The translations under genes were made by a program, and so were the position numbers. Below are positions 48,917 through 56,260 of a stretch of DNA of 64,000 bases, in pieces (the first letter of the stretch is position 1; each line of letters opens with the position of its first letter). Below the pieces are notes generated by a model. That model worked only from the letters and a program-made list of their open reading frames with translations. It had not been told where the DNA came from and did no database searches. Origin of the DNA: Nitratifractor salsuginis DSM 16511 (lineage in GTDB: Bacteria > Campylobacterota > Campylobacteria > Campylobacterales > Sulfurovaceae). The stretch spans positions 930,001 through 994,000 of the forward strand of contig NC_014935.1 in NCBI RefSeq assembly GCF_000186245.1, written 5' to 3'.

Positions 48917-50260
48917 ATGGGCGGATCGGGCAAAGAGAAAAAGGCCTTCGGACTTTGGAGTGCCATCTTCATCGGCATCGGTTCGATGGTGGGGGCCGGG
49001 ATCTTCATCGTCATCGGCGAAGCGGGGGCCATCGCCGGGAATATCGTCTGGCTCTCCTTCATCTTCGGCGGGATCGCCGCGCTGCTGAGCGGCTACTCCC
49101 TGGCCAAACTGGCTCTTCGTTATCCCTCCAGGGGCGGGATCGTCGAGTATTTGGTGCAGGGCTACGGCGAAGGGGTCTTCTCCGGTTCGGCAAGTGTGCT
49201 TTTTTACTTCGCCGGCCTGGTTGCCATCGCTGCCGTGGCCAAGAGCTTCGGCACCTACGCCGCTACCTTCCTCCACGCGCAGAACACCCCCTCCATCGTC
49301 AATGCCTTTGCCCTGGGGATCGTGGGCTTCTTCCTGCTCATCAACCTTATCGGGGCCACCTTCGTCGCCAAGTCGGAGAACCTCCTGGTCATCATCAAGG
49401 TGACCATCCTCACCGTCTTTGCTGTGGCGGCGGCCTGGCATATTGACCCGGCACTGCTCAGTGCAAAAAAGATGCCGCCGATTATGAATATGCTCTATGC
49501 CATTGGCTTGACCTTCTTCGCCTATCAGGGTTTCAGCGTCATTACCAATACGGTCGAAGATATGGAGAACCCGGCCCGTAATATGATGCGGGCGATGATC
49601 GGGGCGATCCTGATCGTGATGGCGCTCTATGTCCTGACCGCCGTGGCGGTCCTGGGGAACCTTCCTCTTCCCGAAGTGATCAAGGCAAAAGATTACACCC
49701 TGGCGGAAGCGGCCAAACCGGTCTTTGGCGTGCTGGGCTTCAAAGTGATGGCGGCGACGGCGCTGCTTTCGACCGCTTCGGCCATCAACGCTTCCCTCTA
49801 TGCCACGGCGGAGATCAGCTATACCATGGCCAAAGAAGGAAACCTCCCCAAGGTCTACAGCTACAACGTCTTTCAATCCAACGAAGGGCTCATCATCAGT
49901 TCGCTGCTTATTGTGCCGATGATTCTTTTCTTTGACCTTTCGGAAGTGACGACGGTCGCGGCCCTGTCGGTGCTGATCGTGCAGGGGCTGACTCATATCG
50001 GGCATCTGATGCGGCTCAAAGAGACCGGAGCCAACGGTGTGCTGGTCTTTTTGGCGGCGGCGGCGATGTTCACGATCACTGCGCTGACCCTCCACTACAC
50101 CCGGCTTCATGATCCGGCTATCGGCTACTATCTGCTGGGGGCCTTCGTCCTCTGCTTTTTGGTCGAGGTGAGCCTGCGGATCTTTACAAAGCGTATCGTC
50201 ACCCGCCAGGTGGTGGACCTCTTCAATTTCAAACGCTGGGAGGATGAGAAAAAGATATGA
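48917..50260 (+). CDS. APC-superfamily amino-acid/polyamine transporter
   Basis: 447 residues, about twelve membrane segments. N-terminal FGLWSAIFIGIGSMVGAGIF with the Gly-Ser-Met-Val-Gly-Ala-Gly unwound helix is the APC substrate motif. MENPARNMMRAMIGA and MAATALLSTASAINASLYA fit the APC fold. Substrate cannot be told; cationic amino acids or amines are typical. Translationally coupled to the next gene (stop overlaps start ATGA). GGGGAGGC precedes ATG. Confidence 0.85.
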   Translation: MGGSGKEKKAFGLWSAIFIGIGSMVGAGIFIVIGEAGAIAGNIVWLSFIFGGIAALLSGYSLAKLALRYPSRGGIVEYLVQGYGEGVFSGSASVLFYFAGLVAIAAVAKSFGTYAATFLHAQNTPSIVNAFALGIVGFFLLINLIGATFVAKSENLLVIIKVTILTVFAVAAAWHIDPALLSAKKMPPIMNMLYAIGLTFFAYQGFSVITNTVEDMENPARNMMRAMIGAILIVMALYVLTAVAVLGNLPLPEVIKAKDYTLAEAAKPVFGVLGFKVMAATALLSTASAINASLYATAEISYTMAKEGNLPKVYSYNVFQSNEGLIISSLLIVPMILFFDLSEVTTVAALSVLIVQGLTHIGHLMRLKETGANGVLVFLAAAAMFTITALTLHYTRLHDPAIGYYLLGAFVLCFLVEVSLRIFTKRIVTRQVVDLFNFKRWEDEKKI

Positions 50261-51513
50261 GCACGTCACAAATGATCCACTACGCGGTGGCGAACCGTGA
50301 GATCCTGATCCCCAACTTCATCGTTATCGCTACGACTTTGGTCCTGACCCTGCTGCTTTTCGCCAAACCGATCGAGAAGAGCTCCTGGTGGGCGGCGACG
50401 GCAATCCCGCTGGCTTCCATCATCGGGAGCGGTTTTCTGGTGGTGGCGCCTATTTTGCAGATGAGTATGGGGGTCTATGCCCCCTTTGCGATGACGGGGC
50501 TCGTTACCGTGGCCTATCTCATCGGCGCGGCGATCCGTTTCAACATCCATCACGTCGAACCCAAACTGGCCGCCGGGACCCTCCATCCCGCTCCTCATAC
50601 CCTGGAGATCCTCTCCCAGTGGGCCCTGGCTTTTGCCTATGTGGTCTCTGTGACCTACTATCTGGCTCTCTTCGGGGATTTTGCCCTGCGGGGGGTCAAT
50701 GTGGTCAATCCCATTCTCTCCCACACCATCACGACCGCCATTTTGATTTTCATTGCCGTCTATGGCCGCTACCGGGGTTTCAATTTTCTCGGCCGCTTCG
50801 AAGCGGTCAAGCTGGGGATCATCGGAGGTTTGCTGGCGGGCCTGGCCTACGGCAACTATCACGCCTGGGCACAGCAGCTCTGGCATCTGCCTCCGGTCAA
50901 GGAACCCACGCTGCACGACTGGCGGATCGTCCTGGGGATGCTCATCGTGGTGCAGGGCTTCGAGACTTCCCGCTATCTGGGCGATAAGTTCCCTCCGATG
51001 CTGCGGATCCGTACGATGCGCTATGCCCAGTGGATCAGCGCGGGGATCTATATCGTCTACATTACCTTGATGCTCTACTATTTCAACTATCCTCTGCCTC
51101 CGGAGGGCCAGGATACCGCTATCATCACCCTTTCACGTCATGTTGCGACGGTCCTGCCCGTGATGCTCCTGGCCCTGGCGCTCATCGCCCAGTTCGATGC
51201 CGCCATCGCCGATGCCCAGGGGGGTGCGGGGCTATTCGAAGAGCTGAGCAAGCGCAAGATCACCGTCAACACCGGCTATATCATCATCGCGGTGGGCGGG
51301 ATCCTCATCGTCTGGAGCTCCAATATCTTCCAGATCATCACCTACGCGTCCCAGGCCTTCGCGGTCTACTATATGCTCCAGAGTATGGTAGCGGCCCTCA
51401 CGGCCGCCAAACACGAGGATATCCCCCATCGCTGGCCCAAATTCTTCGGCTTCGCCCTGGTGGCTTCGCTAGCCGCCACGGTCGTGATCTTCGGAATCCC
51501 CGCGGGCGGTTGA
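50257..51513 (+). CDS. Polytopic membrane protein, distant APC/NSS-like
   Basis: 418 residues, about eleven to twelve membrane segments, no recognised motif. Some features suggest a LeuT-type fold (MTGLVTVAYLIGAAIRFN, DAAIADAQGGAGLFEELSKR), and it contains FQIITYASQAFAVYYMLQS. ATGA overlap with the APC gene upstream implies a pair, either two subunits or a transporter with a partner. I cannot name a function. Confidence 0.72.
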   Translation: MSTSQMIHYAVANREILIPNFIVIATTLVLTLLLFAKPIEKSSWWAATAIPLASIIGSGFLVVAPILQMSMGVYAPFAMTGLVTVAYLIGAAIRFNIHHVEPKLAAGTLHPAPHTLEILSQWALAFAYVVSVTYYLALFGDFALRGVNVVNPILSHTITTAILIFIAVYGRYRGFNFLGRFEAVKLGIIGGLLAGLAYGNYHAWAQQLWHLPPVKEPTLHDWRIVLGMLIVVQGFETSRYLGDKFPPMLRIRTMRYAQWISAGIYIVYITLMLYYFNYPLPPEGQDTAIITLSRHVATVLPVMLLALALIAQFDAAIADAQGGAGLFEELSKRKITVNTGYIIIAVGGILIVWSSNIFQIITYASQAFAVYYMLQSMVAALTAAKHEDIPHRWPKFFGFALVASLAATVVIFGIPAGG

Positions 51514-54634: not shown

Positions 54635-54681
54635 GGGACAAACCTTTGGAAAGAGTTATCGCAATGATAACGTAACGATGC

Positions 54682-55221
54682 TCATTTTACTTTCCAGGGG
54701 GTCGAAGCGGGAAGATGCCTACGGTCCAGGACCCGGCAGCGGACATTATAGGCGCTCATGAGGTGCCGCAGTTTGAGGGTGAGGTCGGCCAGGGTGAGTT
54801 TGTAATGGCGCAGGGCTTTTTCGGAGAGATCCCGTTCGAGAAAGAGGATCACTTCCACTTTCGCCTCTTCCCGAGTGCAGAGCAGCGTGTAAAAGGGGGC
54901 GAACTCTTCGAGGCCCAGCCGTTTGGCCCCGATCATCGCGGCGAAGGTGTCGACGAATTTTTTGGCGACATCGTTGAGGAGCCGTCCGTTTTGCTGCTTG
55001 GCGAGATTCTGTCGGCTGTGGCCCCGGAAATCCTTGATCTCGATGAGTTGGAGCAGATCGTCGTGGGCCGCGAGGATATCCACGGCTTTCATCCCTTCGA
55101 GCCACTGGACCCGGTCGCGGTAGAAAGAGCTGGCGTCGAACTTGCTGACCCGCCAATCCTCGGGAAAGGTAAAGACCAATCGGGTGGGGGGTGTCCCTTC
55201 GGCGATGACCGGCATGCTCAC
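54682..55221 (-). CDS. PD-(D/E)XK-like nuclease paired with AAA ATPase
   Basis: 179 residues, no signal. The strand VDILAAHDDLLQLIEIKDF has Asp48 and, 13 residues on, Glu61-X-Lys63, the spacing of a PD-(D/E)XK active site; a helix with GHSRQNLAKQQNGRLL follows. The rest (VEVILFLERDLSEKALRHY, LTLKLRHLMSAYNVRC) may be an accessory region. Start is either GTG 55221 (GTGA overlap with the ATPase stop) or ATG 55215. No family name recognised; the call rests on motif and pairing. Confidence 0.6.
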   Translation of the reverse strand: MSMPVIAEGTPPTRLVFTFPEDWRVSKFDASSFYRDRVQWLEGMKAVDILAAHDDLLQLIEIKDFRGHSRQNLAKQQNGRLLNDVAKKFVDTFAAMIGAKRLGLEEFAPFYTLLCTREEAKVEVILFLERDLSEKALRHYKLTLADLTLKLRHLMSAYNVRCRVLDRRHLPASTPWKVK

Positions 55222-56240
55222 TCCAGCTCCAGATAGCGGTCGGCCTGGCTGAGCGCTTCGTCCAGGGTCACCAGAGGGGTGACCTTTTCCAAAGAATCGC
55301 TCTCCTGGAGGGTAAGGCGGTGTTTGGCATCGTAGCCAAGGGCGATGTAGTGGCTCGGCAGCTTGGCGAAGCTTTTGCGATGGGAGAGGATCTCGATCTC
55401 CCGCAGCAGAAAGAGGCTGTGGGTGCTGAGCAGCACCTGGACCCCCTGCAGAGCCAGCGACATCAATATATCGGCGACCTGCCGCAGGAGTTTGGGGTTG
55501 AGGTTGGTTTCGGGTTCATCCCAGAAGAGCAGGCTTCCGGGGCGTAAAGTTCCGTTTTGGATGAGCCGGGCGATGGTGGCGAGTTTGGCGACCCCTTCGC
55601 CCGCCAGGGTCATCTCCCGCTTGCCGTATCGTGGGGAGTGGAGGTAGAAACGTTCCTGCTCTCTGTGGACCGTTCCGCCGATCATCCCTTCGATGCGGCG
55701 TTGCAACCCGCTCATTTTTTCATCGACCGCTTCTGTGGGAGGATGGTCGATGGCCGCTGCCAGATCGTAATAGGTGGCATCGAAGGCCCGCTCTTTTCGC
55801 TCCGCCAAGTCCAAAAAGCCTTGATAGCCCGTGAGGACTTCCGCCGTGGGGAGGAAGAGCGGCACCGTTTCGGGGAGTGAGCGGGGGACGCGATCCAGGC
55901 TGAGCCTGTGGCGGCTTTTGGCTGTGAAGCTGAGCGAAAAGCTCTCTTGATCGAAGGATACTGTGATATGGCAGGGGCGTTCACTCTCCCGCCATCCCAC
56001 GAGATGGCCCAGGATATCGGGGCGAAAGACTGCCATCAATCGATCCGCGATCCTCTCGGAAAGATCGGTGTCCGCAAACCGAGAGCGCGTACCGGCGGTC
56101 GCCAGGGTATAGGCAAGCTTGAGAAGGTGGCTCTTGCCCGAGCCGTTCTCCCCGATGACCACATTGAGCCCCGGGACGAAGCCGATACGGTGCCTGCCCC
56201 GAAAAATGGTGAAGTTCTCCAAACCGAGTTCGCAGATCAT
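55218..56240 (-). CDS. AAA15/AAA21-type ATPase (OLD/RecF-like), partner of the nuclease-like gene
   Basis: 340 residues from ATG 56240 (AAGGAGAAGCG in front). ABC-type head: Walker A VVIGENGSGKSHLLK (30-37), signature-like LAGEGVAKLATIA (212-216), Walker B SLLFWDEPETNLNPKLL (Asp241-Glu242), and STHSLFLLREIEIL with switch His274. Between the Walkers lies a helical region about 170 long, too short for coiled-coil SMC arms. This is the COG3950/AAA_15 layout of many defence ATPases (for example in PARIS, Gabija or Septu-like systems), but also of housekeeping OLD proteins. The stop overlaps the downstream nuclease start (GTGA). Confidence 0.8.
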   Translation of the reverse strand: MICELGLENFTIFRGRHRIGFVPGLNVVIGENGSGKSHLLKLAYTLATAGTRSRFADTDLSERIADRLMAVFRPDILGHLVGWRESERPCHITVSFDQESFSLSFTAKSRHRLSLDRVPRSLPETVPLFLPTAEVLTGYQGFLDLAERKERAFDATYYDLAAAIDHPPTEAVDEKMSGLQRRIEGMIGGTVHREQERFYLHSPRYGKREMTLAGEGVAKLATIARLIQNGTLRPGSLLFWDEPETNLNPKLLRQVADILMSLALQGVQVLLSTHSLFLLREIEILSHRKSFAKLPSHYIALGYDAKHRLTLQESDSLEKVTPLVTLDEALSQADRYLELE

Positions 56241-56260
56241 CGCTTCTCCTTCATTATTTT

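Follow-up and report, generated by a model that had tools for sequence, protein, structure and literature searches.

An ABC ATPase and a predicted PD-(D/E)XK nuclease of Nitratifractor salsuginis form a HEC-02-type candidate defense pair among transporter genes

Results

The two overlapping genes described here are real and conserved; as a module they probably serve in defense, are of a type that has been catalogued before, and occur by themselves in a neighborhood of transporter genes. They lie within the window, the whole stretch of DNA that was analyzed, which comprises 64,000 nt of Nitratifractor salsuginis DSM 16511 (NC_014935.1, positions 930,001-994,000) and to which all coordinates below refer. 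Judged from profile matches, both proteins belong to the catalogued PADLOC candidate defense system HEC-02, and we consider it likely that they constitute a laterally acquired, stand-alone HEC-02 module in which an ABC ATPase would serve as sensor and a PD-(D/E)XK protein as effector in defense against phages or mobile DNA.

Both proteins match the HEC-02 models

Both window subunits match the models of HEC-02 (Hma-embedded candidate 2; PADLOC-DB 2.0) nearly full length. The ATPase aligns with PDLC04146 over residues 1-339 of 340 (E=2.1e-91) and the partner with PDLC04145 over residues 14-178 (E=2.6e-25), the weaker match of the partner marking the window pair as a divergent member. A previous sequence-only reading of this DNA had not recognized the partner, a view that the HEC-02 match supersedes. 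The same reading had put forward an ATPase-nuclease pair of the anti-phage type, and this putative identity is supported by the predicted fold, the catalytic residues, the adjacency of the genes in relatives and the HEC-02 match. HEC stands for Hma-embedded candidate, and several HECs, HEC-06 among them, have been shown to be active (PMC12988326). A literature search, outside which the original bioRxiv description lay, found no paper or experiment on HEC-02.

Architecture of the locus

The ATPase gene (55218..56240, minus strand, ATG at 56240) encodes the 340-residue HEC-02 ATPase subunit, an ABC-type ATPase (SMC/Rad50/PtuA-like, Pfam AAA_21), and runs directly into the gene for the 179-residue HEC-02 partner, a nuclease of predicted PD-(D/E)XK fold (54682..55221, minus strand), for which the GTG at 55221 and an ATG two codons in (55215) are equally plausible starts. 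The ATPase stop and the partner start share a GTGA (55218..55221, minus strand), the 4-base overlap that the sequence-only reading had reported. This arrangement is consistent with translational coupling, and a spacing of -4 is the commonest value among homologous pairs (30 of 88).

The pair has NRAMP and DedA (VTT) as its neighbors within an array of transporter genes on the minus strand, in agreement with its earlier description as lying among ion carriers and not in a defense island. On the upstream side, the NRAMP stop is separated from the ATPase start by 20 nt (56241..56260, minus strand) that include an AAGGAG resembling a ribosome site. No promoter-like site was found in this gap, so the pair is probably transcribed along with the transporter genes on a shared transcript. 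On the other side, the 47-nt intergenic region between the partner and DedA (54635..54681, minus strand) forms the downstream edge of the insertion; a perfect 6-bp palindrome with a 5-base loop lies between these genes at 54655-54671. Elsewhere in the window, a predicted membrane protein of 418 residues (50257-51513, plus strand) adjoins an amino-acid permease and has no Pfam match at E<=1e-8.

The ATPase is of the ABC type

The ATPase carries Walker A (GENGSGKS) at residues 30-37, Walker B at D241-E242 and the H-loop histidine at H274, each at the position previously read from the sequence, and 66 residues follow the H-loop histidine. Across 37 homologues, G35, K36, E215, G216, D241, E242, N248, P249 and H274 are invariant. 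The Pfam match of the protein is AAA_21 (E=1e-22), and the "AAA" in that family name is a naming habit. Foldseek searches with the AlphaFold (AF2) model (pLDDT 87.8) ranked Septu PtuA first (8eea, E=1.8e-14) and SMC and Rad50 heads next. On the strength of this model the protein is an ABC-type (ABC/SMC-like) ATPase, which corrects its earlier designation as AAA; the AAA+ class was rejected in view of these nearest structural matches.

The partner has the predicted core of a PD-(D/E)XK nuclease

In the partner, the Asp48...Glu61-X-Lys63 spacing had been read as fitting a PD-(D/E)XK nuclease. These residues are present at the reported positions and, across an alignment of 80 homologues drawn from many phyla, conservation reaches 100% for D48 and E61 and 97.5% for K63, with D64 and K88 each at 98.75%; a profile built from six partner sequences already had D48, E61 and K63 invariant. 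The observation of the pair as a whole is more than chance, since these residues are conserved across the 80 homologues and the partner follows the ATPase in most of the listed loci described below.

An AlphaFold (AF2) model of the partner from 72 sequences, with a mean pLDDT of 91.5, contains the PD-(D/E)XK core that the sequence-only reading had proposed to look for by structure prediction. The core elements follow the expected alpha-beta-beta-alpha-beta order, with D48 placed just ahead of a strand (49-53) and E61 and K63 within a second strand (56-65), after which come a long helix (80-102) that contains K88, a strand (122-130), a helix and a further strand. Foldseek matches of the model in the PDB were weak, none at E<1e-3, and mostly to PD-(D/E)XK enzymes; the list includes Hjc resolvases, HincII, Nt.BspD6I, Hef, Cdn1, Avs4 and R2, entries that we take to be members of the PD-(D/E)XK superfamily. 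A PD-(D/E)XK fold is thus likely for the partner on the basis of its conserved residues and modeled topology, not of the Foldseek score. PDB searches by sequence, run both with the single partner sequence and with its profile, yielded chance matches only, and a Pfam assignment to DUF6661 (E=1e-5), just below the curated cut-off and with no literature, was rejected. Lys88 (window 54958-54960) lies in the helix that follows the strand bearing E-x-K, and it may be an additional residue for catalysis or nucleic-acid contact that is peculiar to the HEC-02 partner family.

The two genes are neighbors across many phyla

Relatives were collected by scanning approximately 85,000 species genomes with an ATPase profile, which was used after a genome scan with the single sequence and a viral scan with the partner profile had each given no matches. 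The best 80 loci among the matches listed, which are not a random census, span Pseudomonadota, Cyanobacteriota, Planctomycetota, Acidobacteriota, Bacteroidota and other phyla. Several of these loci are on short contigs, gene calls for their neighbors simply took the longest ORF, and two (L065 and L039) are one contig of the same-genus genome G237, sampled twice. In 74 of these best 80 listed loci the ATPase is followed immediately by a partner ORF, and the adjacency in relatives that the earlier reading had named as a check is thereby borne out; among inspected matches from plasmid and phage collections, the partner is adjacent in 8 of 9. Of the remaining listed loci, one is on a contig of insufficient length and in five the ATPase stands without an intact adjacent partner, which suggests that this protein may also act in some other capacity. 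Four of the five (L080, L081, L099 and L143) have no adjacent intact partner and L067 has a partner fragment only; the L080 ATPase lies between HmaB and HmaC despite having no intact partner next to it.

Relatives occur in defense loci and on mobile elements

True to the name of the family, HEC-02 relatives are found between HmaB and HmaC, whereas the window copy is alone in an ion-transporter array. Hma genes (HmaB and/or HmaC) are present in 14 of the best 80 listed loci, in most of which the pair lies between HmaB and HmaC, and a fifteenth locus, that of the same-genus copy, has an HKD+Snf2 helicase in its vicinity. Hma genes were not found within the stretch examined at the other 66 listed loci, nor near the window copy. 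As HEC-02 was originally defined by its embedding in Hma, these contexts confirm the family and add no new link. More distant relatives borne on plasmids lie within a BREX-2 operon in Polaromonas and within BREX-1 operons in Sphingobium and Methylomonas, and other relatives occur on viral contigs. In a comparison that is rough because one gene can match several models, the genes adjoining the pair matched 81 PADLOC families, with one family found in up to 8 genes, and genes lying 7-10 kb distant in similar loci matched 27 families, with at most 1 gene each.

Distant versions of the pair, each an ATPase (E ~2e-45 to the HEC-02 model) with a small E-x-K partner, were also observed in two Campylobacterota of the same order (L152:6079-7606 and L153:7039-8566). 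Both lie inside sugar-nucleotide/O-antigen-type biosynthesis clusters, where a nuclease pair would not be expected.

Comparison with known ATPase-nuclease systems

Across BREX and BREX-related (Hma) loci, OLD-ABC ATPases are paired with PD-(D/E)XK, HNH or PIN nucleases, and such pairs have been proposed to act as sensors and backup effectors (PMC12839542). The two-gene design of an ABC ATPase with a PD-(D/E)xK nuclease is also that of WonAB, which we liken to the window pair by its published description alone. WonAB defends experimentally, and this defense requires both genes as well as the tested ATPase and nuclease residues; toxicity of the overproduced nuclease depends on the presence of the ATPase, and infections end abortively, translation being inhibited while the chromosomal DNA stays whole (PMC12137116). 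In contrast to the window ATPase, which is short at its C-terminus, WonA has C-terminal extensions that form, in its dimer, the surface to which WonB is predicted to bind (PMC12137116).

In PD-T4-4, the ATPases are related to the window ATPase over the C-terminal half of the ABC domain (hhalign 97%) and are larger, at about 450 residues versus 340. The D and E-x-K of the PD-T4-4 nuclease profile align exactly with those of the partner in a match that is itself weak (hhalign probability 6.6%), and the partner had no match to PD-T4-4_B in PADLOC.

The sequence-only reading had likened the pair to PARIS, Septu and Gabija. This likeness holds for the general ATPase-nuclease design and for the PtuA-like ATPase, but not for membership, as the partner is of a different type. 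Septu (PtuAB) has the two-gene ATPase-nuclease design, and PtuA is the nearest solved ATPase structure; its nuclease PtuB, however, is an HNH protein, whereas the window partner is PD-(D/E)XK-like with no match to an HNH family, and membership in Septu was rejected on this difference. PARIS (AriAB) and Gabija (GajAB) share with the window pair the concept of an OLD/ABC ATPase with a nuclease, and AAA_21/AAA_15 domain matches. Their nucleases are TOPRIM proteins, with a helicase in addition in Gabija, and the window partner is neither. Assignment to PARIS was rejected since the partner has no AriB or DUF4435 match in Pfam or PADLOC, and assignment to Gabija since the 340-residue ATPase has no TOPRIM match and there is no helicase partner.

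Proposed mechanism and its alternatives

If the pair works like WonAB, PD-T4-4 and Septu, its ATPase would dimerize with ATP at composite sites and hold or stabilize the nuclease, which would be licensed when the ATPase senses an infection cue. The nuclease would then cut nucleic acid through a metal-bound site formed by D48, E61 and K63, so that either the invading DNA would be destroyed or the cell would be shut down in an abortive infection. We lean somewhat toward abortive shutdown because WonAB, the closest pair of this design to have been studied experimentally, inhibits translation and does not degrade the chromosomal DNA. A more elaborate proposal, which we regard as unlikely, is that HEC-02 is a family separate from WonAB that needs no other system for abortive infection, and that its PD-(D/E)XK effector, with its near-invariant Lys88, would cut host tRNA or rRNA once a short PtuA-like ABC sensor detects infection; transcription from the metal/ion-transporter operon would here tie the dose of the pair to ion stress.

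Many PD-(D/E)XK enzymes are DNases. Together with an ATPase fold near that of SMC and Rad50 heads, this leaves some room for a possible, if doubtful, alternative that agrees with the preferred explanation on a role in defense and differs in mechanism: the ATPase would be an SMC/Rad50-like clamp that binds or scans DNA, and the nuclease would cut invading DNA, in the manner of restriction, with no shutdown of the host. Such a mechanism would fit a pair that is often beside Hma or BREX methyltransferases, which could mark self DNA. However, where no Hma gene was found, as in the 66 of 80 listed loci and near the window copy, discrimination of self from non-self would need another cue, and the analogue WonAB leaves chromosomal DNA intact (PMC12137116).

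The chances are poor that the pair is a toxin-antitoxin module in which the ATPase merely neutralizes a toxic nuclease for the maintenance of a plasmid or prophage. Two overlapping genes with the nuclease second, the mobile contexts of relatives and the presence of toxin-antitoxin genes near some copies are in keeping with that idea, but the invariant catalytic motifs of the ATPase go beyond what sequestration needs, and the WonAB nuclease is non-toxic without its ATPase (PMC12137116).

Local history of the pair

Within the phylum the components of the pair are rare, the partner model matching 4 of 397 genomes and the ATPase model 6 of 397. At the equivalent site in the same-genus genomes G237 and G346, the cassette is missing and the distance from NRAMP to DedA is 134 and 82 bp, respectively; the pair that G237 does possess is at another locus, next to RhuM-like, Fic-like and HKD+Snf2 helicase genes. 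The tree places the window pair with that of G073, a genome from another family, to the exclusion of the same-genus G237 (support 100/99). This grouping indicates that the window pair was acquired laterally. The GC content of the pair is host-like and so gives no compositional sign of recent acquisition. In G073 (L040:1390-11749) the pair lies ~4-6 kb from DedA, Na/H antiporter and NRAMP genes, with an amino-acid permease also there; this ion-carrier neighborhood resembles that of the window, yet the tree of the pair departs from that of the species. The transporter cluster and the pair may once have moved jointly.

The similar surroundings in G073, and the position of the window pair on the same strand between NRAMP and DedA with a 20-nt gap to NRAMP, are what could speak for a housekeeping role in an ion-transporter operon, such as DNA repair or transporter regulation, an option that the sequence-only reading had allowed for; we consider it highly improbable in view of the patchy occurrence, the empty sites in congeners, the lateral transfer and the contexts of relatives in Hma and BREX loci, on plasmids and on viral contigs.

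Discussion

While the window pair is otherwise one more member of a described class, its analysis gives a widespread candidate system, HEC-02, a label and a candidate active site. The locus also indicates that copies of HEC-02 can sit outside recognizable defense loci, where surveys based on gene neighborhood are weakest. With a compact ABC sensor and a single-domain nuclease, the pair would be a simple model for the control of nucleases by ATPases.
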